From assembly GCA_030765065.1 (NCBI GenBank), contig CM060983.1, positions 50,776,067 to 50,840,066 on the forward strand: DNA of 64,000 nt. Reading direction: 5' to 3'. Source of the DNA: Deroplatys truncata (lineage: Eukaryota; Arthropoda; Insecta; Mantodea; Mantidae). Below the pieces are notes generated by a model, which saw nothing but the letters and a program-made list of their open reading frames with translations, was not told the DNA's origin and did no database searches. The translations under genes were made by a program, and so were the position numbers. Position 1 is the stretch's first letter, and every line of letters starts with the position of its first letter. This document shows positions 6,819 to 62,261 of this stretch, piece after piece.

Positions 6819-6829
6819 TTGTTTCTATC

Positions 6830-27530: not shown

Positions 27531-27692
27531 AAATTCCCCAAATGATTCGCATTTTTTCCGGTAAACCACAACGAGATCTCAAATTTTATTTAGAGGACAT
27601 ACTCCAATGGCGACTTACAATGCTGCAAGTAATGTTAAGTCTCGGGCTTCAAGTTTCGACCACTTAGGTCAATTAATTCCATTTCGTTTTTT

Positions 27693-33525: not shown

Positions 33526-33692
33526 TAAGGTCGGCGTTTAGAGAAAACCATAAAATTCTATCTTAAGAAACATAATCAGCACAGATTCATGTATGCTACT
33601 TGGAATCTGTTTGAAGCCAGTCATACGAAAGAAAAAAAATCTGATGTGATACACTTCTCTAGCCACTCAAACTATTCTTACTAAAACTTATT

Positions 33693-33821
33693 ACTTTCTC
33701 TATTACGTATAGTAAGTAGGGGAAGTATTGTATTCCACCCAAAAATTCGATACCGAGATTTCACCGTAAGCACATGTTTTGACGTGCACTGAATGCATAT
33801 AAAGCATTTTTGGAAAATGTC

Positions 33822-33862
<41 letters not shown>

Positions 33863-34535
33863 TAACTCAGAAACGAACAGTCGGATAAACACCAAACTGG
33901 GTATTTAGGTTCAGTATCTTCCAGAAATACGACACGAAGGTTTTCAAGAAAATCCCAAACCCAGATTACCCTTTACATGGAACATTTTTCAAAAATTTTA
34001 ATTTTCTCAAAAATGGCTAAAGATTTTGAATAAAATACCATAAGTTTAAGACATTTTTATGGCAAATGAATTGTATATCTTGAATTTTCTGGGAATGTCT
34101 CCAAAAGTATTCTTCATTGTGAACGACTTTTGCGTAACTGGTAAACCATAAGAGATAGACAAAATGTTACTACACAAAAAATGTAGATCGCGTTAAAATA
34201 CACAATTTATGTCATATACATTTTTTATTGCTGAGTGATCCATTTTCGAGGTATTGCTTGTTATTCCCTTAAATTTTCCAATACTTATACTTTTTCTCAA
34301 ATTCGTTATTCATTTGTTTTGTGCTGGTAATGCAAAGAGAATGGAATACGCCACATAGCAATCAGCTCTTAAAATATTTGACTATCGCTTTAAGCCTACC
34401 AATTCCCCTTGCATCTACAAGAAAATTAGCAATAAGATTAACATCTCGATTAACATGAAGCATATGGAGAATAAGCGTTTATAAAAATAGTTTGTACAAG
34501 AGTAGAGAAAGTCATGTGAGCGTAACACATCAGAT
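33693..34535 (+). mobile_element. repeat H, full-length, long (TG) tract
   Basis: 843 bp from ACTTTCTCTATTACGTATAG to CACATCAGAT. The microsatellite at 33821-33861 is a pure TG run of about 20 units; it replaces the TCTGTGAACAGCA block. The flanks at 33640-33692 and about 34540-34620 are pieces of an older minus-oriented H copy, so this one inserted into another H. Confidence 0.82.
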
Positions 34536-34620
34536 TTTTGTTTCTAAAACTACTTCTTTTGGATTCAGAGGCCTCAAAACATGTATTTGCAGTGAAATCT
34601 CGGTATGCATTTGTGCGATC

Positions 34621-35137: not shown

Positions 35138-36003
35138 TTTGATGTGTTACACTCACATGACATTCACTACTCTTGTACAATCTTATTTTTACAAACGCCT
35201 ATTCTCCATATGCTTCATGTTAATCGAGATATTGAGATGTCAACCTTATTGGTAATTTTCTTGTAGATGCAAGGGGAATATGGTAGCTTTTAAGCGATAG
35301 TCAAATATTTTAACGATGGTTGCTATGTGGCGCATTTCATTCTCTTTGCATGTCCAGGACATAAAAAAAATGAATAACGAATTTGAGAAAAAGTATAAGT
35401 ATTGGAAAATTTAAGGAAATAACAAGCAATATCTCGAAAACGGTTAACTCAACAAAAGAAATGTATATGACACAAGTTGTGTATTTTAACGCGATCTACA
35501 TTTTTTGTGTTGTAAAATTCTGTCTATCTCTTACGGTTTACCAGTTATACAAAAGTCGTTCACAATGAAGAATACTTTTGGAGACATTCCCAGAAAATTC
35601 GAGATATACATTTCATTTCTCATGACATTATCTTAAACATATGATATTTTCATCAAATTCGTTAGAGCCATTTTTGAGAAAATTAAAATTTTCGAAAAAT
35701 GTTCCATGTAAAGGGTAGCCTGGGGTGGGGGATTTTCTTGAAAACCTTCGTTTCGCATCTCTGGAAGATACTAAACCTAAATACCAAGTTTGGTGTTTAT
35801 CCGACTGTTCGTTTTTGAGTTATGCTGTTCACACACACGCACACACACACACACACACACAGACACACACACGGACATGTTTCCAAAAATGCTTTTTTTG
35901 GATTCAGGAGGTCTCAAAACATGTATTTCCGGTGAAATCTCGGTATCGAATTTTTGGGTGGAATGTAATACTTCCCCTACTTACTATACGTAGTAGAGAA
36001 AGT
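35138..36003 (-). mobile_element. repeat H, full-length subfamily A copy
   Basis: Begins TTTGATGTGTTACACTCACA and ends ACGTAGTAGAGAAAGT at 36003. The AC tract at 35832-35872 is expanded. It is joined directly to the next copy at an AAAAATGAATAACGAATTCC junction identical to that at 61278. Confidence 0.82.
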
Positions 36004-36631
36004 AAAAATGAATAACGAATTCCCATTTGAGAAAATAAGTATTGAAAAATTTAAGGGAATAACAAGCAATATCTCGAAAACGGTTCACTCAACAAAAGAA
36101 ATGTGTATGACATAAATTATGTATTTTAACGCGATCTACATTTTTGTGTAGTAAAATTTTGTCTATCTCTTATGGTTTACCAGTTATGCAAAAGTCGTTC
36201 ACAATGAAGAATACTTTTTGAGACATTCCCAGAAAATTCGAGATATACATTTCATTTCTCATGACAATATCTAAAACATATGATATTTTAATCAAAATCG
36301 TTAGAGCCATTTTTGAGAAAATTAAAATTTCGAAAAATTTTCCATGTAAAGGGTAGTCTGGGGTGGGGGAATTTTCTTGAAAACCGTCATGTCGCATCTC
36401 TGAAAGATACTGAACCAAAATGCCAAGTTTGGTGTTTATACGACTGTTCGTTTCTGAGTTATGCTGTTCACAGACACACAGACAGACACACACACACACG
36501 GACATGTTTCCAAAAATGCTTTTTTTTGGATTCAGTGAGTCTCAAAACATGTATTTCCGGTGAAATCTCGGTATCGAATTTTTGGGTGGAATACAATACT
36601 TCCCCTACTTACTATACGTAGTAGAGAAAGT
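36004..36631 (-). mobile_element. repeat H copy lacking its distal quarter
   Basis: Starts within the family at GAATAACGAATTCCCATTTG and continues to ACGTAGTAGAGAAAGT. The distal 230 bases are missing and are not found beyond the upstream copy. The internal break is at the same T run as in the pairs at 17541/18141 and 60384/61279. Confidence 0.78.
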
Positions 36632-36639
36632 AAAAATAT

Positions 36640-37545
36640 AATAACAGAACGTTTAAAGGAATATGTGTATGTAACAATATATAAAAAGTGTATATTATAG
36701 TCATTGTATATGTTGATATTATTGTATACATATGTAATAATGTTATGTGAATATATTACGTAATTTAATAATGTAGGAGCTGTGATAATAATAGGTTAAT
36801 AGTTGCTAAGAATGAGGTAGCCTTGAGGAAATAATGAATTAGAAAGTTTAACAATACTACTTGTGATGCTTGGAAGCAATAATGTAATTTATTGACAGTT
36901 TATAAAATAGCCAATCAACAACCAGAAAAAGGTTTAGTTAAATGAAGGTATTATATTGGTAGTAGGATTACCCAATCAGGGACTTGAAATACAGAAATTT
37001 ACAAATTTAGGCGGTAGAAATCAAGTCAGGTGCGCAGACAGTGTTACTAATCAGACGCGAAATGGTCCTCGAGAAATTTAATACACATTCAGTGTGAGAC
37101 AAAAACAGTTTACGTGTTTAAAAAGTGCAAGTATTTAATAAAAGATTCTTACAGCTCTCTATATCAGTAAAGTGTTATTTAAATCGTGTCAAGAATTAAC
37201 AAAAAGTAGTGAATTAAAAATTATAATCTGTGTAAGCCTACATTTTTCAGCCGCACCACGCCTTGCAAACAAATCCATGTCTCTAACAATAATACTGACG
37301 CAGCCGAGGCATATATAAATATATAATATTTAAAGAAACTGTTAAAATTCCAAAGTTAATATTTTTAAATTTTTGGACGAGGGCTACCGGGTACCATACG
37401 TGCGGTTGCCAAGTTCGGCTCTCCAACAGTTGAACTACAATACAACTCCTACTTCAAATCGGCTTTCCATACGTGAAACAACAAACTCCTTTTCCAAATT
37501 GGCTCCCAAAGCGTGGGGCAAATAACAACGTAAAAATAACAATAC
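36640..37545 (+). mobile_element. LTR-type retroelement fragment
   Basis: Shares its whole length with 58836-59600 (plus) and with 55200-55912 (reverse). The common outer edge is ATAACAG followed by CCGCCTTAAAGCAATATGTG-like sequence. Parts include an AATAAA signal near 37137, the GACGCAGCCGAGGC segment near 37300, and a primer-binding-site-like TTGGCTCCCAAAGCGTGGGG near 37492. There is no gag or pol. It is a fossil, probably an LTR with some leader. Divergence among the three copies is moderate. Confidence 0.5.
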
Positions 37546-38238: not shown

Positions 38239-38940
38239 ATCTGATGTGTTACACTCACATGACTTTCTCTACTCTTGTACAAACTATTTTTACAAACGCG
38301 TATTCTTCATATGCTTCATGTTAAACGAGATATCGAGATGTTAATCTTATTGCTAATTTTCTTGTAGATACAAGGGGAATTGGTAGGCTTTAAGCGATAG
38401 TCAAATATTTTAAGAGCTGGTTGCTATGTGGAGTATTCCATTCTCTTTGCATTACCAGGACAAAAAAAATGAATAACGAATTCCCATTTGAGAAAATAAG
38501 TATTGAAACATTTAAGGAAATAATAAGCAATATCTCGAAAATGGTTCACTCAACAAAAAAAATGTATATGACATAAATTGTGTATTTTAACGCGATCTAC
38601 ATTTTTGTGTAGTAAAATTTTGTCTATCTGTTATGGTTTACCAGTTATGCAAAATTCGTTCATAATGAAGAATACTCTTGGATACATTCCCAGAAAATTC
38701 GAGATATACATTTCATTTCTGATGAGAATATCTTAAACATATGATATTTCATTCAAAATCGTAAGAGCCATTTTTGAGAAAATTAAAATTTTCGAAAAAT
38801 GTTCCATGTAAAGGGTATGGGGAGGGGGATTCTCTTGAAAACCTTCGTGTCGCATCTCTGAAGATAATGAACCTAAATACCAAGTTTGGTATTTATCCGA
38901 CTGTTCGTTTCTGAGTTATGCTTTTCACAGACACACAGAT

Positions 38941-38975
<35 letters not shown>
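38239..38975 (-). mobile_element. repeat H copy truncated at its microsatellite
   Basis: Minus-oriented and full from ATCTGATGTGTTACACTCAC to the ACACAC tract. The tract then turns into an AT dinucleotide run ending at 38975. The proximal 120 bases that should follow are replaced by the left arm of the giant inverted repeat. Confidence 0.8.
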
Positions 38976-39300
38976 GTCGTATATGAGAGAGGTGGGGGGA
39001 ATATGAGGAGAAGTGTTAGGCTAGACAGGAAGGTCTGAATGACAGAGTATGCGTTTATATGGGAAAGATAGGGAAAACGAAGGTAGTGCTAGGTTGAGAG
39101 AGTCTTCAAGGAGGAAAATGCATTTATATGAGAGCGGTAGGGGGCATATGAGGAGAGGTGCTAGTCTAGACATGGGTTGAGGAGCAGAGTATACGTTTAT
39201 ATGGGTGAAATATGGAAAACGGGAGAGATACAAGGATAGACAGGGTTTGAAGGAGAAGGAATGTAGGTTTATACGGTAATATAGAGAGTAATTCGATTAT
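38976..39300 (-). repeat. minisatellite, left-arm portion
   Basis: About five units of roughly 60-66 bases on the minus strand. The recurring pieces are CCCATATAAACGCAT, CTCCTTGAA-like text, CTAGCCTAGCA and CCTCGTTTTCCCTATC. This is the shortened counterpart of the array at 51180-52495, cut at 38976. Confidence 0.85.
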
Positions 39301-39489
39301 AAAACTTTTATCATCCAGCGTTACAACACTTTTATATACTTTTTTCTAAACCTTGCAAACTTTTTATATGTTAAAGAGTAGCGTGCGAGACGGAGAGGGA
39401 CAAACTGTATATCGTTTCACAGTGAAGTATACGTCCTAACCTATTGCCACCTTGTTTGCTCTGGATCTTCTCATTGTCTATTCATTCCT

Positions 39490-39710
39490 AAAATAATCAC
39501 GTAACAAGACGTAACCAACAAACGTAACCACGTAACAAGACGTAACACAGCGTAACATAACGGCATGACAAGACGTCACACTAAGTAACATAAGCACGTA
39601 ACCACGTGTCAAGACGTAACACCACGTAACAATCTCATCACGCTATGTAACAACACTTACCAACCATGTAACCACGTAACAAAACGTAAGAACAACACGT
39701 AACCAATCCA
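39490..39710 (-). repeat. GTAAC short-repeat cluster, left arm
   Basis: Dense variants of CACGTAACAAGACGTAACA over about 220 bases, containing several palindromic CACGTG-like or ACGT cores. The mirror copy lies at about 50775-50995. Confidence 0.8.
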
Positions 39711-40160
39711 TTGCTAAATCAATCTAAACTAATTCATCCTTCATAACTTAGACAATAAGTACGAGAGCCTAGCCTAGATTAACCCGACCAATCCTAAACG
39801 TTCCTCTCATCATCTATTCTACTCGGTCATCGACTAACCTAATCTGGCAAACCAAAGATAACCTCAACTTTCTTTTAGTGAAATTGCAATGTTTTATTCA
39901 GGTTTTATTATTCGAGAGTTTTAATTGAAAAGCTTACGTCAACATACCTTTATTTTAGTTTGTTGTAGGCGTCTCTCCCCTTTTTATCTAGGCTTGAGAC
40001 TAGCACTAGGATTGCTCCTAATGGCAGGGTTACCACCTTCCCTTCCATCTTCTTCTTTCTTCATCGGTCGTCAGCTAGCTGCATATACAGCACACGGATA
40101 ACCTTCATTTTTTAAGATTGTAGACTCACGAGAAAATCTTCATATTCAACTTAAATTCTC

Positions 40161-43100
40161 TTATACACTACTTGTAATGCTATAATGTCCATAGGCGTAT
40201 GTCGTTATTCCGTCCTCAGCAATAATTCTTTTATCGTCGTATGGTGTCAATGTAATTTTATTCACTTGTACTGTGGCAAGAGCATGCTGTCGCGACAGGA
40301 TCAGATTCATGGGCGTTCTGGTAATTTCTCTGGTTTTAAGGCAGTCAGTATAGCTCTCGAACGTGACGTACTGCTTAATAGCACTACGTTTTATACCTTT
40401 AATCTTTTTTATCATTGAACCGTCGATATCTAGGGCATACATTTTAGGTCGTAGCCCTACAAAGCGTTGAATGATTTTACCATTAGCCTCATCTTTAAAT
40501 TTCCCAAGTACCTTCTTGTTTAGAGGCGAATAGCATATATGGCTTGTAGGATAATCAGCAGTATCTAGGTGCTCAAGAAAACGTAGCTTATCCTGGTACA
40601 CATCTTCAGTTGTAACACGATGAATGAACGAATCAGTGTCCATATACATAAGCTTCAGGTTTTCAGCTCCATAATACGGTAACAACACATCATAGTGATA
40701 CCGGTACATTAATGTCTTGGAGATATCCAACACACTCATACCGATGTATACAGGCTTATTGAACACGATCTGTCGGGAGGCCATATGTACAGCAGCTAGA
40801 TTAGAAGCATATATAGTCCTGTCGATAAACGTTGGCTTTGCAATTAACTTTTCCAGAGTCTTCTCATTTGTCACCAGTCGTATATCCATACGATTACGCA
40901 GGTTCTCCATAGTTTTTCCGAACATAGCATTGTTGAACAATTTGTAGAGATCCTTCTCAAAATCATTTGCAGCTTGTTGTCGTAGTCTGTTGTTAAATTC
41001 CACATACGGTTTTAACCATCGAGACTGTTGGAATTGTAGCACACGATGGATTTTTGTTAACCGTAGTCCATGATCAAGAGCTTGCTTCAACGCCATGTAA
41101 TGTAGTACATACTTATTTCGAGGTCCTAGATGAGGTATCAGTTTCTTTGTAGGAGAGTCCTTAGGTGTCATACACTCAGGCAGGAAAGGTAGATCGTTGT
41201 GTAGATCGTGAAGTTCTGCAGGATACTCGACGTCGACTTCTAATATGTAGCCGTAAGGATCATCTTCTTGTAGTCTTTCTAAGTCAATTTTTTCAGGTGA
41301 TACCCACTCAAATCTACCATAAGGGAGAGCGTGACTCATTGCCCACCCATATTGGTTGTTGGCGTCTTCATAGGTAATAAATTGGGTTGGTCTCGACGGA
41401 TCATACTTCTCCATGTAGGTGTTATTAGCCTCTGCATAGCGGTGGGAAACTTGACATAAACCTCCTCTTATGCCAGATTCCACCATGAGTAATTGATCAT
41501 AATCCTGTAACAATTCCAGCTGAATTCCAGTGTACAGTAACATGGCATCCCATGTAAGTCCTGGAGAGGTAAAATAATGTGCAGGGTCGACTTTGTGTGT
41601 TTTAAGTGTTTGCTCCCTAAATGTCTCAAAGACATCAGCTAGGAGAAGCACATCAGAGATTAAGTAGAGGTCGCTGTACTCGCCCAGGTTTCTGACATTA
41701 AACAGCTCCCATACATTTTTAGCATGATCGTAGTCAGCATCACTAATTTCCTCTTCATTTAATTTATTGTAGAAGGAGTCCTTAGGAGGTAAGCAGGTTT
41801 CGTTCAAGACGTCCCATGAAGTGATGTAATCATAGGGAAATACACCCTTACGAGTCATCAACTTCAACTTGTCTTCTCCGAAGTACTTCAATGTTTCAGG
41901 ATACGATGTTAGATTTTTTACCAGCTTATCCAAGCTTGTACTCAGGAACCGAAAACTATCCACAAACCGGAGCTCTATATCTCCAACATACTTGGAGAAT
42001 GATATATAGCTTTCTTCAGAGCTAGGAATTACTTCCACCCGCTCACTTGTACATCCCAGCTCCTTAACAATGAAATGAGAGTCATATCCACTGAGGTTGT
42101 GCATGAAGACAGGGATATATTTAGGTGTTTTGCAGGCTAAATTACATTCATTATGCAGACTCCCCCGATATTCACCACTGATGTGATCATGGTCGCGTAC
42201 TTTATAGTTCTCTTCAGTAAAGGTTTTTCCACACAAGTAGCATACTGTAGAGGCGTTAAAATCCATCTGCTGTTGATCTGTAAGTTTCAGGGGCATGACA
42301 GATTTGTATATATTGTTAATCTCCTTTGCAAGGAATGACAGGTATTCCATAAACTTCTGAGCAGCATCAACACCACGATATACATAGGGATGCTTAGGAA
42401 GACCAGTTTCCAGATGTTCAACGTTGGTTGATGGTTTAACGTAAACACAGAAGCTCATTGCTGTATGCTCTTGATAAGGGGTTGTATAGGAAGTTTCAGG
42501 ACTGGGAATACACGTATGACATGGAGTGAGAATACTCTCAAAATCCGCATAGATGGCATAAGGTACTTTCAGCATCCTCTCCACATTTTTAAACTGTACA
42601 ATTGATATCTCCTTTGTAGGCATAACTACCCTTGCAACACCATGCTGATTACAGATAGCTGCATGTTCTTCCAGTTTTTCCAGCCCACTTTGTCCATATC
42701 GATTGTCAAAGTGTGTAAAGCATCGCTTACAGGTATATATCACTCTACCATGCTTAGTTTTTTGACGTCGAACGAGCTTCTCAAAATTCTTGATATATAC
42801 ATAGTGATGTTTTCCACTACTGTCACTCAATAGCAGGAGGTCACAGTGGTCAGGTAGTTCAGTGTCGGCAACCTTTATCGGATACACTTCATGCTTCTCA
42901 TCCAGACCGAAGACGTTGATAGACATCCTATTAAGCTTCTCAAATTTAGGTATTTGAGAAAGTGGAGTAGGATAGCTGAAGTCGTACTTATCTTGGAATT
43001 GTGCGTATTTGCTCACCCGTTGTGCATCCTTCTCGACGAATTTGGCCAATACAGAGTACATGAAACATAGCTCATCAGTTAAATTCTGGATGTTAATGCA

Positions 43101-43562
43101 GGCTTTTCTTGCTTCAACAGAGGGAGGTAGGGGTATGTAGCTACTTCCTCGTAGCGGATTGTACTTGTTGATACGAAGGCGCACCCCTTCCACAGCAAGC
43201 AGAGCCCAATTGCTTCTCTTTAGTTGTGATTCCTCCATTTCAGTAACCAATTTCTTCATTTTGGTTTCCAGCATAGAGTCCAGGTCCGTTTCTAGGAAAA
43301 CAGCTTGATTTCTGGTTTTAAATGTCTTGTCACAGGTTTCTCCGATACTGTTAACAAATCTACACTCAGCTAACAGATTAATTTTCAAACTCTTGTGAAT
43401 ACCAAGCTCTTTATGCACAGCCTGGATTATCCGCTGTTTTGCTTCATGCAGGTATATATTCAGGTCCTTAATCGATTCACATCGTATAAAATACGATTTC
43501 AAACGTCCATGGAATGAAGTTTCATATTCTTTCATGTCACACTCCTCCATCGTAGATAACAA
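40161..43562 (-). CDS. Polinton-type family-B DNA polymerase (left copy)
   Basis: Fossil-class virus-like element gene whose 1,133-codon frame looks whole. It encodes a family-B, protein-primed-type replicative DNA polymerase. Motifs by residue: C2H2-like CKRC...H...C (278-304); Exo I YADFES (338-343) with D340 and E342; an inserted endonuclease-VII-like zinc domain with CYLC (441-444), VRDHDH (455-460) and HNECN (470-474); Exo II HNLSGYDSHF (488-497); Exo III YSDLYLISD (629-637); Pol A DANNQYGWAM (733-742); Pol B NNAMFGK (877-883); Pol C YMDTDSF (973-979). The first ATG is four codons in, and the open frame continues upstream with another C2H2 motif (about 43610-43690), so the start is uncertain. 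Polinton/Maverick or a related adintovirus-like element fits best. No integrase, ATPase or capsid gene lies nearby. Confidence 0.9.
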   Translation of the reverse strand: MLSTMEECDMKEYETSFHGRLKSYFIRCESIKDLNIYLHEAKQRIIQAVHKELGIHKSLKINLLAECRFVNSIGETCDKTFKTRNQAVFLETDLDSMLETKMKKLVTEMEESQLKRSNWALLAVEGVRLRINKYNPLRGSSYIPLPPSVEARKACINIQNLTDELCFMYSVLAKFVEKDAQRVSKYAQFQDKYDFSYPTPLSQIPKFEKLNRMSINVFGLDEKHEVYPIKVADTELPDHCDLLLLSDSSGKHHYVYIKNFEKLVRRQKTKHGRVIYTCKRCFTHFDNRYGQSGLEKLEEHAAICNQHGVARVVMPTKEISIVQFKNVERMLKVPYAIYADFESILTPCHTCIPSPETSYTTPYQEHTAMSFCVYVKPSTNVEHLETGLPKHPYVYRGVDAAQKFMEYLSFLAKEINNIYKSVMPLKLTDQQQMDFNASTVCYLCGKTFTEENYKVRDHDHISGEYRGSLHNECNLACKTPKYIPVFMHNLSGYDSHFIVKELGCTSERVEVIPSSEESYISFSKYVGDIELRFVDSFRFLSTSLDKLVKNLTSYPETLKYFGEDKLKLMTRKGVFPYDYITSWDVLNETCLPPKDSFYNKLNEEEISDADYDHAKNVWELFNVRNLGEYSDLYLISDVLLLADVFETFREQTLKTHKVDPAHYFTSPGLTWDAMLLYTGIQLELLQDYDQLLMVESGIRGGLCQVSHRYAEANNTYMEKYDPSRPTQFITYEDANNQYGWAMSHALPYGRFEWVSPEKIDLERLQEDDPYGYILEVDVEYPAELHDLHNDLPFLPECMTPKDSPTKKLIPHLGPRNKYVLHYMALKQALDHGLRLTKIHRVLQFQQSRWLKPYVEFNNRLRQQAANDFEKDLYKLFNNAMFGKTMENLRNRMDIRLVTNEKTLEKLIAKPTFIDRTIYASNLAAVHMASRQIVFNKPVYIGMSVLDISKTLMYRYHYDVLLPYYGAENLKLMYMDTDSFIHRVTTEDVYQDKLRFLEHLDTADYPTSHICYSPLNKKVLGKFKDEANGKIIQRFVGLRPKMYALDIDGSMIKKIKGIKRSAIKQYVTFESYTDCLKTREITRTPMNLILSRQHALATVQVNKITLTPYDDKRIIAEDGITTYAYGHYSITSSV

Positions 43563-43657
43563 CTCTTGCTTTGACGGTTCTAATCTACGTTTCTTCTCAG
43601 GTCTGTTTATTTCACATGCATCTTCGTGTCGACGACACTTATAACTGTCTTTGAAGG

Positions 43658-43939
43658 CTACATTACAATATTTACACTTGAAGTGTTTTTACAACGTAGC
43701 TCATGTCGTCTTTTATCATATCCACTGAGGAACTTCTTACAGCATTTACCACAAGAATATCCTGAGACACTAGGAATGATATCCTTATACGAGGACTTAT
43801 TCATTTTTCTTCTTGATATAATAAGGTATTTACCTTTCTTCAAGGAAATGTACGCCTTGATATCACTTAGAAAGCTGATTATTTTCTGAGAGAACAGCGA
43901 TGTTAACACCTCAGAGATGATCAACAGAATGAATTTCAA
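43658..43939 (-). CDS. small zinc-finger frame upstream of the polymerase
   Basis: A 93-codon frame just 5' of the polymerase on the same strand, part of the same fossil element. A hydrophobic start is followed by SISRR-like basic text. The finger itself reads YSCGKCCKKFLSGYDKRRHE and ends in a Cys-containing tail, a C2HC-type zinc finger. The first Met lies only about 15-25 bases after the TATA box at 43954, so translation more likely starts at an internal Met near MNKSSYKD. Function unknown; such fingers often precede Polinton-type polymerases. Confidence 0.5.
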   Translation of the reverse strand: MKFILLIISEVLTSLFSQKIISFLSDIKAYISLKKGKYLIISRRKMNKSSYKDIIPSVSGYSCGKCCKKFLSGYDKRRHELRCKNTSSVNIVM

Positions 43940-44170
43940 TGCTAGAGGATGCTCTATTTATAGAGGAAGCACGAACCTTTATGCATCAATTATATAACGT
44001 ATTAACCCTTCTTCAAGGAAATGTACTCTTCTTCACATTGATAACACTTTAGATTATTTTCTGAGAGAACAGCGATGTTAACACCTCAGAGATGATCAAC
44101 AGAATGAATTTCAATACTCAAGTTCGCTCTATTTATACAGAAAGCACGAACCTTTTTTAATCAATTATAT
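43838..44170 (-). promoter_or_regulatory. tandemly duplicated promoter segment with two TATA boxes
   Basis: Two copies of a segment with a 173-base period (about 43838-44010 and 44011-44170). Each contains AACAGCGATGTTAACACCTC and, on the minus strand, TATAAATAG (43954-43962 and 44129-44137). They point toward the zinc-finger frame and the polymerase. The downstream copy is the one adjacent to the coding sequence. This is strong TATA evidence by insect standards; use in vivo is inferred. Confidence 0.6.
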
Positions 44171-44428
44171 CCTGATTATTAATACTAAAATCGGTGATGA
44201 AGCGTGTAAGCTCTTATAAATTTCAATTCGTGTTACACTGATGTTCGAGCGTCTCCGTATAGCTTCGTATGTTTAGAGAGAAAGTGTAAAGTATTGTGAA
44301 GATGTTATGTATTGTTCGGCTATAATCGTACAGATTCGGAGAACTTGACTGGTGAAGGTGATGAACGATCCGTCGACCGAGCAGGAGGCAAGCAGTCCCT
44401 TCGCGCAACGAAACCTAGATACAAAAGA

Positions 44429-45470
44429 AAGAAAATCGTGTTAGATGTGAAACCACCCAGAAATTCGCCTGCAGACGATGGAAAACCATGAAAAAATATG
44501 TCAGAGTGAGCGTCCAACGGAACTCGAACCAGGGACTCTAAAAGCACACGTGAAAGATACAAATTATATAGAATGAAAGGAAATCGGTGACGATGAGAAA
44601 CCACTCCAGCATTCGCCTGCAGACCAGGGAAAACCCTAAAAAATATGATGTCAGAGTGATCAACCAGCAGGAATCAAACAAAACACCTTAGAAGCATATA
44701 GGTTAAGTTGTAAATTAAATAAAAATGCAATAAAATCGTGCTAGATGAGAAACCACCCAGACATTCGCCTACAGACCAGGCAAAACCATGAAAAATATGT
44801 CAGAGTAAACAACCATCGACAATCGAACGAGGGAAACCATCAGATTACTCTAGAAGCATAAAGTTGCAAATGAAAGAAAATCGTGATAGATGAGAACCCA
44901 CTCAAGCATTCGCCTGCAGACCAGGGGAAACCATGAAAAAAAATCAAAGGGCTGAGCGACTGGCGGATAGAGTGGGCGACCGACAGGGAAATCAAACAAA
45001 AGGTCTCTAGAAGCATAAAGTTGTAAATGAAAGAAAATCGTGATAGATGAGAACCCACTCAGGCATTCGCCTGCAGGCCAGGGGAAACCATGAAAAAAAT
45101 CAAAGGACTGAGCGACTGACGGATAGAGTGTGTGACCGACAGGGAAATCAAGCAAAAGGTCTCTAGAGACAAAAAAGATGCAATTGAAATGGAATCATGA
45201 TAGCAAATGCCACTACAGCATTAGGCAGCAGACCAGCGAAAATCGTGAGAAACGTAAGGTCAGAGTAAACAATCGATGGAAATCTAACCCCTGAACCCTA
45301 GAAATTCAAGTGAAAAAATACAAATAAAATGGTTTGAAAGGGATTTGTGATAGCAAATACCGCTACTGCATTAGGCGGCAGACCGGCGAAAATCGCGAGA
45401 AACGTAAGGTCAGAGTGCTCGTCCCTACGGGAATCGAATCCGAGACATCTCGAATGCAAAGTGCTGGCGT
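44429..45470 (-). repeat. tandem array of SINE-like monomers, about seven
   Basis: Units of about 147-158 bases start near 44429, 44580, 44729, 44876, 45034, 45189 and 45340. Each runs through GAGAAACCACTC, CATTCGCCTGCAGACCAGG, AAACCATGAAAAAAT, CAGAGTG and a GGAATCGAAC-type B-box-like box. The same order (ACCATTCTAGCATTAGCCTG, GGGGAAACCCCCGAAAAAAC, CAGAGTGGACGG, GGATTGAACC) occurs in the single SINE at 55975-56228, so the monomers are related to that family. The units are diverged, so the array is older than the inverted repeat. Open frames here are by-products of the periodicity. Confidence 0.75.
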
Positions 45471-45662
45471 TATTGACTGTACAAAACAGTAAAAACAGAC
45501 CTCATTAACAGTCGTCATGCTTAAGCACGTTAACTTTCACCATATGACGTCACAGTCGGGGACAGTTTGACTGTCGCAGCCATGTCGGGACATGCATATT
45601 TTAGACATCTCATATTTTAGAGTCATATACAGAAGTTTCATACCAACGTACTCACTACGCTC
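45471..45662. other. unassigned link
   Basis: Sequence between the SINE-like array and the 436-base duplication. No features recognised. Confidence 0.35.
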
Positions 45663-46538
45663 GCAAAGATAATCTAAAATTTCATCGTTGAAATACTTTG
45701 GAAATAGTGTAGAAGTTTTACCGGCCTTATTTAATTAAATTCATGTATATACCCTATTATTTAGTGATTTTTTCAATAATTTCTTCCTCTGATTCGTCAA
45801 AAATCAGTGTACAATACGCATTTTTATACGTTTTAATGTTCCTTTATTTTTAAAACCGCTGCATTTGTCCGTAATTACGAGCAATAATTTTTTTTCAGAT
45901 TTACTCAGATGTGTAGCTTGTAGAATCGAATTAGGAAATGTTTTAATAAATGTATTGTATTTTTTAGGTTAAAGTAGCTACATTTTTAAAGCTGCCAGGA
46001 CCGTTATTTGTATTTAGTATAAAGATTGTTATATTTTCATTTTTAAGACTTCCTTTGTTAAAAGATAATGTCTTGCAACCTATTTTTAAATTTGTTTTGC
46101 AAAGATAATCTAAAATTTCATCGTTGAAATACTTTGGAAATAGTGTAGAAGTTTTTCCACCCTTATTTAATTAAATTCATGTATATACCCTATTATTTAG
46201 TGATTTTTTCAATAATTTCTCCCTCTCATGTCCATCATTCGTCAAAAAATCAGTGTACAATACGCATTTTTATACGTTTTAATGTTCGTTTATTTTTAAA
46301 ACCGCTGCATTTGCCCGTAATTACGAGCAATAATTTTTTTTCAGATTTAATCCAATTTTAGCTTATAGAATCGAATTAGGAAATGTTTTAATAAATGTAT
46401 TGTATTTTTTAGGTTAAAGTACCTACATTTTTTAAAGTTAGCATGCCGTTATTTGTATTTAGTATAAAGATTGTTATATTTTCATTTTTAAGACTTCCTT
46501 TGTTAAAAGATAATGTCTTGCAATCTATTTTTAAATTT
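45663..46538 (+). repeat. tandem duplication, two units of 436 bp
   Basis: Unit 1 (45663-46098) and unit 2 (46099-46538) both start GCAAAGATAATCTAAAATTT and end near AAGATAATGTCTTGCAA, then CTATTTTTAAATTT. By eye they are about 95 percent identical with small indels. AT-rich, no coding function. Confidence 0.9.
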
Positions 46539-47143
46539 CTTTTAAAACCAAAGCGAACGTTAACAACTATAATGGCTGTCTTCATGTGTCGGGAAGCTAA
46601 CATGGCCGCTTCAGTCATCTTTTAGAAGCGTACCTTACATGTAGGTAAGGAAGGTAGCATCAGCTGGCGGAGAGGAGAAGGCTTGCGAAAGGCGGCTGAG
46701 GGGCGGCATCTGGAGGGAGTAAGGTAGGGATGAAAGGCCGGCATCATGAGGCGCTGAGAGCTAGCCGAGCCCGCCAGTACGGCACAGCTTGCCGTAAGGG
46801 TCGGACCTAATAGAGTGTCGAGCTTATACAGCTGCAGCGCGCGCCAGCGTCTTACGTAATCTAGTTTTTTACGCTCACTATACCATTTAAATATACATTC
46901 ATCTAAGAGATATAATATTCGTGAGGATGACAGATGTCTAAATATACATAACAAAGAAATTAGTTACTGATATAAATGTAATATCGTACGTTCACCATTT
47001 TATTTTTAATTACTTTTTTTATTTTATTCGAGGATGACTTTGTATTCACGTCACAGGATTCAATCCTAGTCCTCCAGCCCGACTTGGAACAACAATCAAT
47101 AACGAGCTACAATCCAAGGATATAATCGGAAATAATAATAAAA
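46539..47143. other. unassigned, spacer end of the palindrome
   Basis: A GC-rich patch at 46640-46850 is followed by AT-rich DNA up to the inner edge of the right arm. A 110-codon minus-strand frame here has no recognisable domain and I do not call it a gene. Confidence 0.35.
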
Positions 47144-47208
47144 AAACCTGTGACAAGACATTTAAAACCAGAAATCAAGCTGTTTTCCTAGAAACGGACC
47201 TGGACTCT

Positions 47209-50200
47209 ATGCTGGAAACCAAAATGAAGAAATTGGTTACTGAAATGGAGGAATCACAACTAAAGAGAAGCAATTGGGCTCTGCTTGCTGTGGAAGGGGT
47301 GCGCCTTCGTATCAACAAGTACAATCCGCTACGAGGAAGTAGCTACATACCCCTACCTCCCTCTGTTGAAGCAAGAAAAGCCTGCATTAACATCCAGAAT
47401 TTAACTGATGAGCTATGTTTCATGTACTCTGTATTGGCCAAATTCGTCGAGAAGGATGCACAACGGGTGAGCAAATACGCACAATTCCAAGATAAGTACG
47501 ACTTCAGCTATCCTACTCCACTTTCTCAAATACCTAAATTTGAGAAGCTTAATAGGATGTCTATCAACGTCTTCGGTCTGGATGAGAAGCATGAAGTGTA
47601 TCCGATAAAGGTTGCCGACACTGAACTACCTGACCACTGTGACCTCCTGCTATTGAGTGACAGTAGTGGAAAACATCACTATGTATATATCAAGAATTTT
47701 GAGAAGCTCGTTCGACGTCAAAAAACTAAGCATGGTAGAGTGATATATACCTGTAAGCGATGCTTTACACACTTTGACAATCGATATGGACAAAGTGGGC
47801 TGGAAAAACTGGAAGAACATGCAGCTATCTGTAATCAGCATGGTGTTGCAAGGGTAGTTATGCCTACAAAGGAGATATCAATTGTACAGTTTAAAAATGT
47901 GGAGAGGATGCTGAAAGTACCTTATGCCATCTATGCGGATTTTGAGAGTATTCTCACTCCATGTCATACGTGTATTCCCAGTCCTGAAACTTCCTATACA
48001 ACCCCTTATCAAGAGCATACAGCAATGAGCTTCTGTGTTTACGTTAAACCATCAACCAACGTTGAACATCTGGAAACTGGTCTTCCTAAGCATCCCTATG
48101 TATATCGTGGTGTTGATGCTGCTCAGAAGTTTATGGAATACCTGTCATTCCTTGCAAAGGAGATTAACAATATATACAAATCTGTCATGCCCCTGAAACT
48201 TACAGATCAACAGCAGATGGATTTTAACGCCTCTACAGTATGCTACTTGTGTGGAAAAACCTTTACTGAAGAGAACTATAAAGTACGCGACCATGATCAC
48301 ATCAGTGGTGAATATCGGGGGAGTCTGCATAATGAATGTAATTTAGCCTGCAAAACACCTAAATATATCCCTGTCTTCATGCACAACCTCAGTGGATATG
48401 ACTCTCATTTCATTGTTAAGGAGCTGGGATGTACAAGTGAGCGGGTGGAAGTAATTCCTAGCTCTGAAGAAAGCTATATATCATTCTCCAAGTATGTTGG
48501 AGATATAGAGCTCCGGTTTGTGGATAGTTTTCGGTTCCTGAGTACAAGCTTGGATAAGCTGGTAAAAAATCTAACATCGTATCCTGAAACATTGAAGTAC
48601 TTCGGAGAAGACAAGTTGAAGTTGATGACTCGTAAGGGTGTATTTCCCTATGATTACATCACTTCATGGGACGTCTTGAACGAAACCTGCTTACCTCCTA
48701 AGGACTCCTTCTACAATAAATTAAATGAAGAGAAAATTAGTGATGCTGACTACGATCATGCTAAAAATGTATGGGAGCTGTTTAATGTCAGAAACCTGGG
48801 CGAGTACAGCGACCTCTACTTAATCTCTGATGTGCTTCTCCTAGCTGATGTCTTTGAGACATTTAGGGAGCAAACACTTAAAACACACAAAGTCGACCCT
48901 GCACATTATTTTACCTCTCCAGGACTTACATGGGATGCCATGTTACTGTACACTGGAATTCAGCTGGAATTGTTACAGGATTATGATCAATTACTCATGG
49001 TGGAATCTGGCATAAGAGGAGGTTTATGTCAAGTTTCCCACCGCTATGCAGAGGCTAATAACACCTACATGGAGAAGTATGATCCGTCGAGACCAACCCA
49101 ATTTATTACCTATGAAGACGCCAACAACCAATATGGGTGGGCAATGAGTCACGCTCTCCCTTATGGTAGATTTGAGTGGGTATCACCTGAAAAAATTGAC
49201 TTAGAAAGACTACAAGAAGATGATCCTTACGGCTACATATTAGAAGTCGACGTCGAGTATCCTGCAGAACTTCACGATCTACACAACGATCTACCTTTCC
49301 TGCCTGAGTGTATGACGCCTAAGGACTCTCCTACAAAGAAACTGATACCTCATCTAGGACCTCGAAATAAGTATGTACTACATTACATGGCGTTGAAGCA
49401 AGCTCTTGATCATGGACTACGGTTAACAAAAATCCATCGTGTGCTACAATTCCAACAGTCTCGATGGTTAAAACCGTATGTGGAATTTAACAACAGACTA
49501 CGACAACAAGCTGCAAATGATTTTGAGAAGGATCTCTACAAATTGTTCAACAATGCTATGTTCGGAAAAACTATGGAGAACCTGCGTAATCGTATGGATA
49601 TACGACTGGTGACAAATGAGAAGACTCTGGAAAAGTTAATTGCAAAGCCAACGTTTATCGACAGGACTATATATGCTTCTAATCTAGCTGCTGTACATAT
49701 GGCCTCCCGACAGATCGTGTTCAATAAGCCTATATACATCGGTATGAGTGTGTTGGATATCTCCAAGACATTAATGTACCGGTATCACTATGATGTGTTG
49801 TTACCGTATTATGGAGCTGAAAACCTGAAGCTTATGTATATGGACACTGATTCGTTCATTCATCGTGTTACAACTGAAGATGTGTACCAGGATAAGCTAC
49901 GTTTTCTTGAGCACCTAGATACTGCTGATTATCCTACAAGCCATATATGCTATTCGCCTCTAAACAAGAAGGTACTTGGGAAATTTAAAGATGAGGCTAA
50001 TGGTAAAATCATTCAACGCTTTGTAGGGCTACGACCTAAAATGTATGCCCTAGATATCGACGGTTCAATGATAAAAAAGATTAAAGGTATAAAACGTAGT
50101 GCTATTAAGCAGTACGTCACGTTCGAGAGCTATACTGACTGCCTTAAAACCAGAGAAATTACCAGAACGCCCATGAATCTGATCCTGTCGCGACAGCATG

Positions 50201-50322
50201 CTCTTGACACAGTACAAGTGAATAAAATTACATTGACACCATACGACGATAAAAGAATTATTGCTGAGGACGGAATAACGACATACGCCTATGGACATTA
50301 TAGCATTACAAGTAGTGTATAA
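47209..50322 (+). CDS. Polinton-type family-B DNA polymerase (right copy, partial)
   Basis: Fossil copy corresponding to residues 97-1133 of the left copy, almost identical in sequence; the N-terminal part lies outside the repeat arm. The frame is open for 1,037 codons and keeps every recognisable exonuclease and polymerase motif: YADFES, the VRDHDH zinc insert, HNLSGYDSHF, YSDLYLISD, DANNQYGWAM, NNAMFGK and YMDTDSF. The start shown is the first ATG inside the arm. The promoter and zinc-finger region of the left copy is not present here, so expression is doubtful. Confidence 0.88.
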   Translation: MLETKMKKLVTEMEESQLKRSNWALLAVEGVRLRINKYNPLRGSSYIPLPPSVEARKACINIQNLTDELCFMYSVLAKFVEKDAQRVSKYAQFQDKYDFSYPTPLSQIPKFEKLNRMSINVFGLDEKHEVYPIKVADTELPDHCDLLLLSDSSGKHHYVYIKNFEKLVRRQKTKHGRVIYTCKRCFTHFDNRYGQSGLEKLEEHAAICNQHGVARVVMPTKEISIVQFKNVERMLKVPYAIYADFESILTPCHTCIPSPETSYTTPYQEHTAMSFCVYVKPSTNVEHLETGLPKHPYVYRGVDAAQKFMEYLSFLAKEINNIYKSVMPLKLTDQQQMDFNASTVCYLCGKTFTEENYKVRDHDHISGEYRGSLHNECNLACKTPKYIPVFMHNLSGYDSHFIVKELGCTSERVEVIPSSEESYISFSKYVGDIELRFVDSFRFLSTSLDKLVKNLTSYPETLKYFGEDKLKLMTRKGVFPYDYITSWDVLNETCLPPKDSFYNKLNEEKISDADYDHAKNVWELFNVRNLGEYSDLYLISDVLLLADVFETFREQTLKTHKVDPAHYFTSPGLTWDAMLLYTGIQLELLQDYDQLLMVESGIRGGLCQVSHRYAEANNTYMEKYDPSRPTQFITYEDANNQYGWAMSHALPYGRFEWVSPEKIDLERLQEDDPYGYILEVDVEYPAELHDLHNDLPFLPECMTPKDSPTKKLIPHLGPRNKYVLHYMALKQALDHGLRLTKIHRVLQFQQSRWLKPYVEFNNRLRQQAANDFEKDLYKLFNNAMFGKTMENLRNRMDIRLVTNEKTLEKLIAKPTFIDRTIYASNLAAVHMASRQIVFNKPIYIGMSVLDISKTLMYRYHYDVLLPYYGAENLKLMYMDTDSFIHRVTTEDVYQDKLRFLEHLDTADYPTSHICYSPLNKKVLGKFKDEANGKIIQRFVGLRPKMYALDIDGSMIKKIKGIKRSAIKQYVTFESYTDCLKTREITRTPMNLILSRQHALDTVQVNKITLTPYDDKRIIAEDGITTYAYGHYSITSSV

Positions 50323-50774
50323 GAGAATTTAAGTTGAATATGAAGATTTTCTCGTGAGTCTACAATCTTAAAAAATGAAGGTTATCCGTGTGCTGTATAT
50401 GCAGCTAGCTGACGACCGATGAAGAAAGAAGAAGATGGAAGGGAAGGTGGTAACCCTGCCATTAGGAGCAATCCTAGTGCTAGTCTCAAGCCTAGATAAA
50501 AAGGGGAGAGACGCCTACAACAAACTAAAATAAAGGTATGTTGACGTAAACTTTTCAATTAAAACTCTGGAATAATAAAACCTGAATAAAACATTGCAAT
50601 TTCACTAAAAGAAAGTTGAGGTTATCTTTGGTTTGCCAGATTAGGTTAGTCGATGACCGAGTAGAATAGATGATGAGAGGAACGTTTAGGATTGGTCGGG
50701 TTAATCTAGGCTAGGCTCTCGTACTTATTGTCTAAGTTATGAAGGATGAATTAGTTTAGATTGATTTAGCAATG

Positions 50775-50995
50775 GATTGGTTACGTGTTGTTCTTACGTT
50801 TTGTTACGTGGTTACATGGTTGGTAAGTGTTGTTACATAGCGTGATGAGATTGTTACGTGGTGTTACGTCTTGACACGTGGTTACGTGCTTATGCTACTT
50901 AGTGTGACGTCTTGTCATGCCGTTATGTTACGTTGTGTTACGTCTTGTTACGTGGTTACGTTTGTTGGTTACGTCTTGTTACGTGATTATTTTAG
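50775..50995 (+). repeat. GTAAC short-repeat cluster, right arm
   Basis: Mirror of 39490-39710: variants of GTTACGTCTTGTTACGTGGT, 3' of the polymerase gene. Present in both arms with about one visible difference. Confidence 0.8.
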
Positions 50996-51179
50996 GAATG
51001 AATAGACAATGAGAAGATCCAGAGCAAACAAGGTGGCAATAGGTTAGGACGTATACTTCACTGTGAAACGATATACAGTTTGTCCCTCTCCGTCTCGCAC
51101 GCTACTCTTTAACATATAAAAAGTTTGCAAGGTTTAGAAAAAAGTATATAAAAGTGTTGTAACGCTGGATGATAAAAGT

Positions 51180-52495
51180 TTTATAATCGAATTACTCTCT
51201 ATATTACCGTATAAACCTACATTCCTTCTCCTTCAAACCCTGTCTATCCTTGTATCTCTCCCGTTTTCCATATTTCACCCATATAAACGTATACTCTGCT
51301 CCTCAACCCATGTCTAGACTAGCACCTCTCCTCATATGCCCCCTACCGCTCTCATATAAATGCATTTTCCTCCTTGAAGACTCTCTCAACCTAGCACTAC
51401 CTTCGTTTTCCCTATCTTTCCCATATAAACGCATACTCTGTCATTCAGACCTTCCTGTCTAGCCTAACACTTCTCCTCATATTCCCCCCACCTCTCTCAT
51501 ATACGACACATTCCCTACTTCAACCCTGTCTAGCCTAGCATCGACCCTCGTATTCCCTATCTCTCGCATATAAACGTCTACTCTATCATTCAAAACTCCT
51601 AGCCTAATACCTCTCCTCGGTTCACTATCTCGCTCATATAAAACGCCATATTCTACCCTTCAAGTCCTGTTTAGTATAACATCTTTCCTTATATTCCCTA
51701 TCTCTCTCGTATAAAGCGTATCCCTCCCTCCTTTAGCATCTGACTAGCCTAGCATCAGCCCTGGTATTCCCTATCTCTCCCCTATAAACGCATTTTCCTC
51801 CTTGAACTGTCGCATCTACCCTCGTTTTCCCTATCCTTTCCCATATAAACGCAAAAAGTATCCTAGCTTCTGTCTATCATACCATCTGTCCCCGTTTTCC
51901 ATATATTCCTCATATAAACGTATACCGTACTCCTTAACCTCTGTCTACACTAGCACCTCCCCTCGTATACCCTATCTCTGTCGTATAAAGCATATCTCTC
52001 CCTCCTTCTGTCCCTGCTCTACCTCAGAACTCTCCTCGTTTTCCCTATCTCTCCCATATAAACGCATGTTTTCCTCCTTGAAGGTTCTCTCGACCTAGCA
52101 TATACCCTCGTTTTCCTCGTGTCTTCATATAAAAAGCCATACTCTACCCTTCAAACCCCGAATAGTCTAGTACCTCTCCACGTATCCCCTATCTCTCCTG
52201 TAAATATGTTCATATTCCCCTGCTTCAGCATCTGTCTATCCTAGCCTCTGTTCACGTTTTCCCTATCTTTCCTATATAAATGCATATTCCAACTCTCAAC
52301 CCTATCTAGTCCAACACTTCTCCTCGTATTCCACGTATCTCTCATATAAAGCACATCCTCATTCCTTCAACCTCTATCTAGCCTAGCATCGATCCTCGTA
52401 GTCCCTATCTTCCCCATATAAACGCATTTTCCTCCGTGAACCACCGCATATACCCCCGTTTTCCCTATCCTTTCCCATATAAACGCAAAAACTGC
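51180..52495 (+). repeat. minisatellite array, about 20 units of 60-66 bp
   Basis: Units contain CCTCGTTTTCCCTATCTCTC, CCATATAAACGCAT, TCCTTGAA or CTTCAACC and CTGTCTAGCCTAGCA, with strong drift between units. The first third (to 51507) lies within the right palindrome arm and the rest is outside it. Many units include TATAAA by virtue of CATATAAACG. No protein; the open frames in it are periodic artefacts. Tandem repeats are common in Polinton termini, which is a possible origin. Confidence 0.85.
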
Positions 52496-52721
52496 GCCAG
52501 AATGGACCTATATACTCTACTCACAGATACTGAGAGCAGATAGACTGGGCGGATTCCTAATGCCATCTGCACTGCACGCGCAGAATCTACCATTTGTTCG
52601 TCACAGGAGCAGAGGTACAGTTGCCATGCACATGCTTCTCTGGACATATGACCAAGCAAGCTCGTAAATACAGGGATGAGACCTAGAAGGCCAACTGTTC
52701 GTAATGAATATTGTCAATAGT
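52496..52721. other. unassigned junction
   Basis: Moderately GC-rich DNA between the minisatellite and the LINE 3' end. No terminal repeat of a Polinton was recognised. Confidence 0.3.
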
Positions 52722-54765
52722 ATGAATGAATGAACAAACTTTAAATAAATTTTATTTGTACATCTTTTATACACAATCCTTTTTTATAATATCTCATTGG
52801 TAAACTAACTTAACCTATGTAAAGATTTTCTGGCCAGCTATATTCTACCTGTATTACTCATTTTGCCTGGCACTTTGGCCTTATGGCTCAGCTGAGCTGC
52901 CCTTGCTACGCTTAATCACCTATGATCCATCCTCTCCCTCTTCAGTTTGCCCTTCTACCTTTATCTCTGTTACTTTTCTAATGAATTTCTCCTTTACTTT
53001 CTTTAAGACCTCCCCCATATTCTTATTTCTCTTGTTAACATTCTAATTGCTACTATTTTTCCATTCATTTTTACTTTCTCTACTACATATAGTAAGTAGG
53101 GGAAGTATTGTATTCCACCCAAAAATTCGATACCGAGATTTCACCGGAAATACATGTTTTAAGACTCACTGAATCCAAAAAAATCTGTGAACAGTCAGAA
53201 TCAAACAGTCGGATATACACCAAACTTGGTATTTAGGTTCAGTATCTTCCAGAGATGCGACACGAAGGTTTTCAAGAAAATCCCCCACCCCAGACAACCC
53301 TTTTAAATGGAACATTTTTCGAAAATTTTAATTTTCTCAAAAATGGCTCTAACGATTTTGATTAAAATATCATATGTTTAAGATATTTGCATGAAAAATG
53401 AAATGTATATCTCGAATTTTCTGGGAATGTCTCCAAAAGTACTCTTCATTGTGAACGACTTTTGCATAACTGGTAAACCATAAGAGATAGACAAAATTTT
53501 ACTACACAAAAAATGTATATCGCGTTAAAATACACAAATTATGTCATACACATTTCTTTTGTTGAGTGAACCGTTTTCGAGATATTGCTTGTTATTCCCT
53601 TAAACTTTCCTATACTTATACTTTTTCTCAAATTCGTTATTAATTTTTTTTATGTCCTGGACTTGCAAAGAGAATGGAATGCGCCACATAGCAACCAGCG
53701 TTAAAATATTTGACTATCGCTTAAAACCTAGCATATTCCCCTTGCATCTACAAGAAAATTACCAACAAGATTGACATCTCAATATCTCGATTAACATGAA
53801 GCATATGGAGAATAAGCGTTTGTAAAAATAGTTTGTACAAGAGTAGAGAAAGTCATGTGAGTGTAACACATCAGATATTTTCTCTGTGTTTCCTCCCATA
53901 CTTTTTGTCTCCATTCTGGCAATTCTTTGCATTCTGTCATATAATGCTCTGTACTTTCACTACCTCCGCATAGTTCACAAATTTCGTTTTTTCTGCCTCA
54001 TAGCCCTCTCAGGTACATTGACCCTGTTCTCATCCAAGCAAACGCTTCTTTTTCGGTTCTATTACAATAATCCACATATCCTTCTCTTCCCCATTTCCTT
54101 TTTACTAATCTATAGAACCTTAGAGATTTTTTATTCTCTAAGCTTCCCCAAATCTCTTGTCTTTCTATGTCCTCCACCCTGTTTCTTACTGTCATCCAGA
54201 AGCCGTTGCCACTTCCTTCTTCTGCTCTCCAAATATCTTCCATTCCTATCTTCTCCATAATTTTTTCTAGCCCTGTCCACCAGCTATTTTTATTTTTTGT
54301 ACTCTTTTGTTATTTCATACTAATCCTTGAAGTTTCCCCTTCATCTTTTTCAGGTATCTAATTTAATCCCCTTTACAGTATCACTCCCTTCTTGTTCTTC
54401 CTAATTCCACTAATGCTACTTCCCCCGGTGCTGATCTTGGCAACCCCAATAGCTCTTTACAAAACCTTCTATAGCTCTGGTCTATTTTTCTGCTTAATTC
54501 AGATCCTCTCCAAATTTCAACTGCATATAGCATTCTAGCTTCTTCTAATAACTCATATATTCTTTCTATCCATTTATTCGGCTTTTCTAATTTGTATTTG
54601 CACATCCTTACTCCTGTCATTGCCGCTTTTCCTTTAGCAATAACCTTCCTGCTATGCACCACCCATTCACCATTACTGCTCATCTTCACCCCCAAATAAC
54701 CAAACTCCTTAGCAACTTCTAACTTTAAACCCCTATGTTATCAACAGTATTTAAACTGTCCTTAT
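52722..54765 (-). pseudogene. LINE ORF2 C-terminal part, split by repeat H
   Basis: Minus-strand non-LTR retrotransposon remnant truncated at its 5' side. At 54695-54381 it reads LGVKMSSNGEW-type text (MGVKMSSNGEWVVHSRKVI) and later EARMLYAVEIWRGSELSRKI, ending KELLGLPRSAPGEVALVELG. At 54258-53998 it reads MEKIGMEDIWRAEEGSGNGF, IERQEIWGSLENKKSLRFY and CNRTEKEAFAWMRTG. These are typical post-RT domains of insect LINEs; the reverse-transcriptase catalytic part is gone. Beyond the inserted H copy (53073-53876) the C-terminal NMGEVLKKVKEKFIRKVTEI continues. The 3' end carries a short TTCA-type tail (near 52722-52735). Several stops are present. Confidence 0.72.
53073..53876 (+). mobile_element. 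repeat H, full-length, inserted in a LINE
   Basis: 804 bp: ACTTTCTCTACTACATATAG to CACATCAGAT. Removing it rejoins the flanking LINE at a run of T, which defines the element ends. Five T precede it and ATTTT follows, so insertion occurred within a T run without a longer target duplication. The microsatellite is nearly lost here (near 53185), which accounts for the shorter length. Confidence 0.85.
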
Positions 54766-60057: not shown

Positions 60058-60213
60058 CTGTTCACAGACACACACACACACCTTTTTTATAAAACAATAT
60101 TTAGTTCAGTGGGCCTCTAAACAAGTATTTCCAGTGTAACCTCAACATCAAATTTTTGCGTGGAATACAATACTTCCTCTACTTACTGTAAGAAGGTAGT
60201 AGAGAAAGTAAAA

Positions 60214-61893: not shown

Positions 61894-62261
61894 AAAATTT
61901 ATATTAGACAAGTTAGCCGAGTGAAAGAACAAGCAATATTTCCTTATATGTGGTCTAGGATTTTTCAAGACCTTTTAATTTATTAATTTTATAATTGTAG
62001 CTATATTTCTTAACTTTTTCGCGTGCGCTGTTTACAAAAATGTTGTAGCATTTAGTGGAGCACCTTTTGGTATAACACCTGCATTTCCGGTGCAAATTAC
62101 TTTTGATTTAATGGAGGAAAATATGTTAAAATCAGGAATTTGATCTGAATTTACTGTTTAACACTCAGCTTTTTTACGACTTCAAAGTTTATTTCTCCGC
62201 GAATTTAAATTATTATTTATCGGAGGACAGAGAGTATTATAATAAGAATTGATATTACTAT
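61894..62261. other. unassigned spacer
   Basis: AT-rich, no recognised feature. Confidence 0.35.

Follow-up and report, generated by a model that had tools for sequence, protein, structure and literature searches.

The replication of Polintons, or Mavericks, as protein-primed linear DNA is a view that rests largely on their gene content. Inverted dimers are made by other protein-primed linear replicons: adenovirus and the yeast plasmid pGKL1 both have deletion forms of the fold-back type. Polinton ends are expected to read (AGT)2 or (AG)3. For vertebrate Mavericks, one study gives terminal inverted repeats (TIRs) of 46-1,447 bp in intact elements and an (AGT)2 end motif (PMC8097293). At the title and abstract level of the literature searched, a scope outside which most subscription papers lay, no palindromic Polinton was described.

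The window analyzed here, a 64-kb stretch of the Deroplatys truncata genome, contains an inverted repeat with two polymerase-bearing arms of 4,364 bp each. Measured against the vertebrate range (PMC8097293), this length agrees with the preliminary description of the locus, in which ordinary Polinton terminal repeats were said to be much shorter. The repeat is probably a degraded copy of a giant palindromic family derived from Polintons/Mavericks that is copied via fold-back DNA. Its structure is well supported; the copying mechanism is one that we infer.

Results

Direct alignment of the left arm (38976-43339, plus strand) with the right arm (47144-51507, minus strand) showed 8 substitutions in 4,364 bp and no indels, which corresponds to an identity of 99.82 %. 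The preliminary description had reported two near-identical arms of equal length around a spacer of 3,804 bp, and the alignment returned the same coordinates with sharp arm borders. The runner-up among the inverted repeats listed for the window measures 532 bp at 94 %. Three of the eight differences are private to the left arm, four to the right arm and one is undecided, as would be expected if the arms had been identical at insertion and had drifted since.

The element lies amid a single diverged family of interspersed repeats present in both orientations, at 24181-24800, 35394-36660, 38332-38970 and 60063-61980 and, as inverted copies, at 5974-6823, 17536-18287, 27686-29546, 33688-34540 and 53068-53880. 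Fragments resembling a mariner-type transposase were seen by eye at 2-781 (minus), 12736-13023 (plus) and 22363-22999 (minus).

Matches to the related loci L009/L010, L013/L014 and L025/L026, together with the reading of the right terminus, place the remaining body of the palindromic element at 38976-52521, with its left terminus lost. The outer right arm (51508-52521, minus strand), which is unpaired in the window, aligns with both the L009 and the L025 terminus and ends at 52521 with the terminus 5'-AGTAGAGTATATAGG in minus-strand reading. The corresponding outer kilobase of the left arm is absent, and the arm adjoins a (TA)n stretch at 38951-38975 instead. The so-called spacer (43340-47143, plus strand) is the inner left arm with tandem repeats. 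It matches L009 at 5.7-9.0 kb and at 9,189-9,590 and stops about 76 bp short of the central terminus of L009. At the 47143/47144 junction the sequence jumps into the right polymerase gene, the centre and the inner right arm are missing there, and the loop had no match anywhere in the window. These comparisons indicate that the arm borders noted earlier are damage borders rather than element ends, and that the window copy, from which the left end, the centre and inner sequence of one arm are gone, is a degraded member of its family. Outside both of its ends CACAGATAC was found, which is perhaps the remnant of a target duplication, and since the left side is a CA-rich repeat, a chance occurrence is possible.

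The left PolB frame (40164-43688, minus strand) has 1,175 codons between stops, its C-terminus points towards the outer end, and it combines homology to Polinton PolB with an Endonuclease_7-like stretch. Comparison with the L025 frame places N-terminal PolB residues in a second frame (43661-43957, minus strand), out of frame with the rest. In the right PolB frame (47038-50319, plus strand), unrelated codons up to the 47144 junction stand in place of the N-terminal part. Both polymerase frames had been described as staying open across the shared region. This holds, but it does not extend to whole genes, as the N-terminus lies in another frame on the left and is truncated by the junction on the right, and neither polymerase gene of the window looks complete.

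In support of the Polinton-type nature ascribed to the polymerase, it is 37 % identical over 320 columns (E 1e-70) to a PolB fragment from an element of the same genome that has genes for capsid, ATPase and integrase. Exonuclease and polymerase motifs are retained in the PolB alignment as judged by eye. From its similarity to the Polinton PolB, the palindrome PolB would be classed as a family B DNA polymerase of the protein-primed type. It had no match to Pfam DNA_pol_B_2 at E-values up to 1, which its Polinton relative L088 matches at 7.8e-17. The window protein matched three endonuclease VII families and, weakly, two families of unknown function in PHROGs, and it had no match among solved structures at E 0.001. 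Relatives in viral contigs were not confirmed, either by one protein or by alignment.

Selection on the polymerase was assessed with ten frames of at least 1,000 codons, which were kept from 28 sources (the window and L002-L028). The dN/dS ratio ranged from 0.13 to 0.38 with a median of 0.29 in the 40 of 45 pairs with dS above 0.03, and its median was 0.57 in the remaining five. Constraint on PolB is only indicated by these values because the set excludes broken frames, draws in L002-L008 on the closest copies of the window, and includes unrelated N-terminal codons in the right frame of the window.

To describe the gene content, ten proteins of a local capsid Polinton were used as queries: capsid, penton-like, protease-like, ATPase, integrase, the PolB fragment and four other frames. 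PolB was the only one that matched the window, 20 element pieces from ten other elements, or ten element midpoints. Capsid, ATPase and protease had no match in the window, the 20 pieces (11 elements including the window) or the ten midpoints. The same applies to tblastn searches with the integrase of the local Polinton in the window, pieces and midpoints, a search that a very divergent integrase would escape.

The assembly comprises 4.29 Gb in 818 contigs. With the polymerase DNA as query, 16 of the best 40 scored places among 7,631 candidates form eight pairs, including that of the window, in which a minus match is followed, within a few kb, by a plus match. As query, the outermost kilobase of the arm was found at no fewer than 40 main places and 8 short secondary ones, and 26 of the 40 form 13 plus/minus pairs, again including the window. 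Both results are lower bounds, as only the best candidates were scored. They indicate that the window element is no one-off, and that it is one of many copies in the genome. The 22-base end of the family occurs 592 times (294 and 298 copies on the two strands) with at most one mismatch, and the reversed control pattern had no occurrence on either strand of the genome. The first 100 of these places, all of them exact and located on contigs C1-C7, comprise 40 plus/minus pairs and 20 unpaired ends. Within these 100, neighbouring ends within 40 kb occur in plus/minus orientation only, and end-to-end spans range from 283 bp to 32 kb with a median of 16.5 kb.

Two samples of elements were read. The first consisted of 10 of the 13 outer-arm pairs, the window not counted, each fetched as two abutting pieces. 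The second, less biased one was drawn from the 13 pairs on C1 and C2 and consisted of all ten that span 14 kb or more, for which 900 bp were read about 4 kb inside each end. At the outer border of the match, AGTAGGATATATAGGACAGACC or a closely similar end was read left and right in eight of the ten fetched elements; seven of these eight are flanked by a perfect 6-bp target duplication, and the remaining one by a duplication matching at 5 of 6 positions. In the second sample, all ten end pairs have perfect 6-bp target duplications. The ends of the family read AGTAGG or AGTAGA, deviating from (AGT)2 by a single base. In L009 a variant end, which the window shares, lies 219 bp further out, and no element end was found on the L010 side. 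In L021/L022, which has an end on both sides, the mirror symmetry runs about 540 bp past both termini and the usual target duplication is missing. An insertion into palindromic host sequence or a chromosomal fold-back is a possible reason for this exception.

Two further kinds of locus are bounded by the same ends. L095 (283 bp) and L096 (361 bp) are tiny and MITE-like; both fold back, share these termini and have a perfect 6-bp duplication. L093 (C6:53017500-53018299) lies in the middle of a 32-kb stretch bounded by family ends and contains a different, distantly related PolB frame that matches DNA_pol_B_2 at E 1.3e-11. This frame had no DNA match to the other fetched loci and perhaps belongs to a nested Polinton of another kind.

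An inverted match between the left and right sides was found in all ten fetched elements, with best stretches of 2.3-9.0 kb at 97.7-99.7 % identity. The best-preserved copy read, L009/L010, is an 18.5-kb palindrome with arms of 9.0 kb and a gap of 439 bp. L025/L026 has arms of 7.4 kb and a gap of 225 bp that lies within inner repeats, so its original centre is gone. Where other copies have longer 'spacers', these consist, like that of the window, of inner sequence from one arm that is unpaired. The ten sampled end pairs all have mirror-image arms, which are 98.3-100 % identical over 489-900 bp, four of them at 100 %. Relative to the ends, the arms are in register within 5 bp in five of these pairs and shifted by 13-411 bp in the other five.

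In each of the ten sampled pairs, the arms match one another better than they match any other fetched copy that aligns over 450 bp or more; four of the pairs have stretches of 100 % identity, against a divergence of 1.9-3.7 % from other copies. A tree of 22 arms from 11 elements, based on about 2 kb, placed the two arms of each element as sisters in all 11 cases, with a support of 100/98 or better in ten and of 91/86 in one. Inverted flanks were found in seven of the ten midpoint stretches and the L009/L010 loop in five. This loop is common to L009/L010, L007, L020 and the five sampled midpoints. As several elements have it in common, the palindrome seems to be older than their split, and yet the arms coalesce within each element. 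Within the polymerase gene, arm mismatches are clumped, with a variance/mean ratio above 2 in seven of ten elements, and along the whole arm they are non-uniform in five of ten. One half of the L023 arm has no mismatches. This clumping points to conversion tracts or uneven repeats.

Matches to the double jelly-roll capsid family PF21738 numbered at least 126 among 7,122 candidates, one of those listed containing a stop. Very many near-identical open capsid genes of this type are present (L029-L032, L053/L054 and the PF21738 places). Polinton-type elements with capsid, ATPase and integrase thus look recently active in this genome. One of them, on C10 (L053/L054/L065/L066), has a capsid, an ATPase (Pox_A32) and an integrase (rve) by Pfam, penton-like and protease-like frames that were recognized by eye and have no Pfam matches, and a truncated PolB. 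Its terminus reads AGTAGAA(C/T)AAG and its duplication CATGCT. One of its ends is doubled in mirror image, identical at 3,250 of 3,250 bp and then at 99.6 % over 2,149 bp further out. Three inverted capsid-gene pairs within 25 kb were seen by eye among the listed PF21738 matches. All three pairs tested are inverted duplications; those on C4 and C16 are mirror images at 99.6 % and 100 % (500 bp each), and the spacings differ.

The terminal repeat of the capsid Polinton has strong matches in 9 of 18 palindrome loci, not all of which hold a centre (best match 82 % over 229 bp, E 5e-49). The usual outer terminus of the family shares only AGTAG with the capsid Polinton read, whereas the central mini-element shares its terminal repeat. 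Some palindrome centres hold a mini-Polinton with a match to the end of a capsid Polinton from the same genome. Beyond the two central termini, the first 25 bases on either side mirror each other exactly in L056 and L064; the centre flanks of L009/L010 form a similar mirror image with differences, and in L062 the border was determined by eye. Had the mini-Polinton inserted in the ordinary way, its flanks would be direct rather than inverted. The alternative of a centre that represents a Polinton's native right end was rejected, as the central AGTAG ends are oriented like both ends of a complete mini-element.

Discussion

A well-preserved member of the family consists of two mirror arms of about 9 kb around a small central gap, with 5'-AGTAG... 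termini on the outside and a 6-bp target duplication, as is seen in the copies read. Each arm has a PolB gene. Since no integrase was found in the elements, integration would be supplied from elsewhere, probably by co-resident Polintons. For the origin of the palindrome, a linear DNA of Polinton type may have folded back at the inverted repeats of a nested mini-Polinton, now the centre, so that a 3' end at the mini-Polinton terminus could prime the synthesis of the second arm. Such priming is suggested by the arms, which mirror each other outward from the mini-Polinton ends. In later rounds of copying, the self-complementary strand would pass through a hairpin and the arms would be re-equalized, which would explain the paired arms. 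After insertion, they would drift apart; the likeness of the two arms within each copy is observed. Of the causes listed in the preliminary description, fold-back of a protein-primed linear replicon would fit best. The unique recent inverted duplication proposed there lacks support, as all sampled copies have the palindrome as their usual form.

Several observations speak against this fold-back reading. The mismatches are clumped, the centre was recognized in only five of ten midpoints and nine of 18 loci, and the symmetry of L021/L022 continues past the termini. In addition, half of the sampled pairs are shifted in register, PolB falls below detection with DNA_pol_B_2, the usual outer terminus has no more than AGTAG in common with the capsid Polinton read, and no intermediate was encountered. 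A more far-reaching version, in which the family is a naturally self-complementary DNA transposon, is put forward tentatively, as an idea that falls somewhat short of probable. It would be a Polinton satellite that retains nothing but a polymerase of its own, copies itself as a giant hairpin with its arms re-equalized in each cycle, and borrows its integrase and perhaps its capsids from resident Polintons.

Gene conversion and repeated formation from a monomer remain live rivals. If the palindrome were inherited as such and its arms kept alike by chromosomal gene conversion after insertion, no hairpin stage would be needed, and both the clumped mismatches in seven of ten elements and the mismatch-free half of the L023 arm would be what conversion tracts leave behind. 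The distribution of the window differences over both arms instead fits independent drift from an identical start, and the fully identical stretches in four of ten pairs, against 1.9-3.7 % to other copies, fit a recent birth equally well. Conversion tracts probably also occur, but as the explanation of the arm pairing this process is unlikely. Alternatively, the master copy could be a monomer, with each palindrome newly made by fold-back just before insertion and then a dead end. Sister arms in 11 of 11 elements agree with this, as do the capsid Polintons, which form inverted duplications with differing spacings. No monomer was found among the ten sampled pairs or the ten fetched elements, all of which were chosen for having two ends, the 20 unpaired ends of the 100 listed lying outside this check; we consider a monomeric master quite doubtful.

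Two other explanations carry far less weight. Inverted repeats are difficult to assemble, and an assembly error had been named among the possible causes. Yet the same form is seen at many loci, each with its own flanks and a matching 6-bp duplication, both arms have private mutations, and several elements have a centre in common, which makes an artefact of assembly or of fold-back chimeric reads very unlikely. A pair of Polintons that had inserted next to each other in opposite orientation, or one within the other, would yield two mirror-image polymerase genes as well. The target duplications, however, bracket the entire palindrome, the arms are sisters and no other Polinton gene was matched, so that this exceedingly improbable origin is largely refuted for the sampled copies.

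Fold-back palindromes are a footprint expected of protein-primed linear replication. As this genome appears to hold both a large palindrome family and inverted duplications of capsid Polintons, the question of how such elements replicate becomes addressable in DNA. The divergence between arms would give the age of an insertion, in the way LTRs are used for retroelements, and a mirror-image gene pair could give rise to hairpin RNA, which makes silencing of the family testable.

Compared to Polintons/Mavericks, the family shares PolB homology and 6-bp target duplications, and its terminus begins with AGTAG, close to the (AGT)2 of vertebrate Mavericks (PMC8097293), but it has polymerase-bearing mirror arms of 2.3-9.0 kb rather than TIRs of ordinary length. 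It also differs in having no integrase, capsid, ATPase or protease match and in a polymerase whose C-terminus points outward. The C10 capsid Polinton resembles it in the mirror-image doubling of an end, the 6-bp duplication and the AGTAG terminus; it differs in retaining major capsid protein (MCP), ATPase and integrase, in doubling the capsid end only, and in termini that are different in other respects. Inverted dimers with terminal-repeat sequence at the axis are likewise known from self-complementary AAV and AAV duplex dimers (PMC1131931), but AAV is a parvovirus with a Rep protein and no PolB, and is not a chromosomal transposon. Teratorn is also large, and its long inverted repeats have internal TIRs where they border (PMC6431247); unlike the palindromes, it is a herpesvirus-piggyBac fusion of 41-182 kb that carries its own transposase. 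The fold-back forms of adenovirus and pGKL1 do not constitute integrated families with target duplications, and it is in this respect that the palindrome family differs from them.
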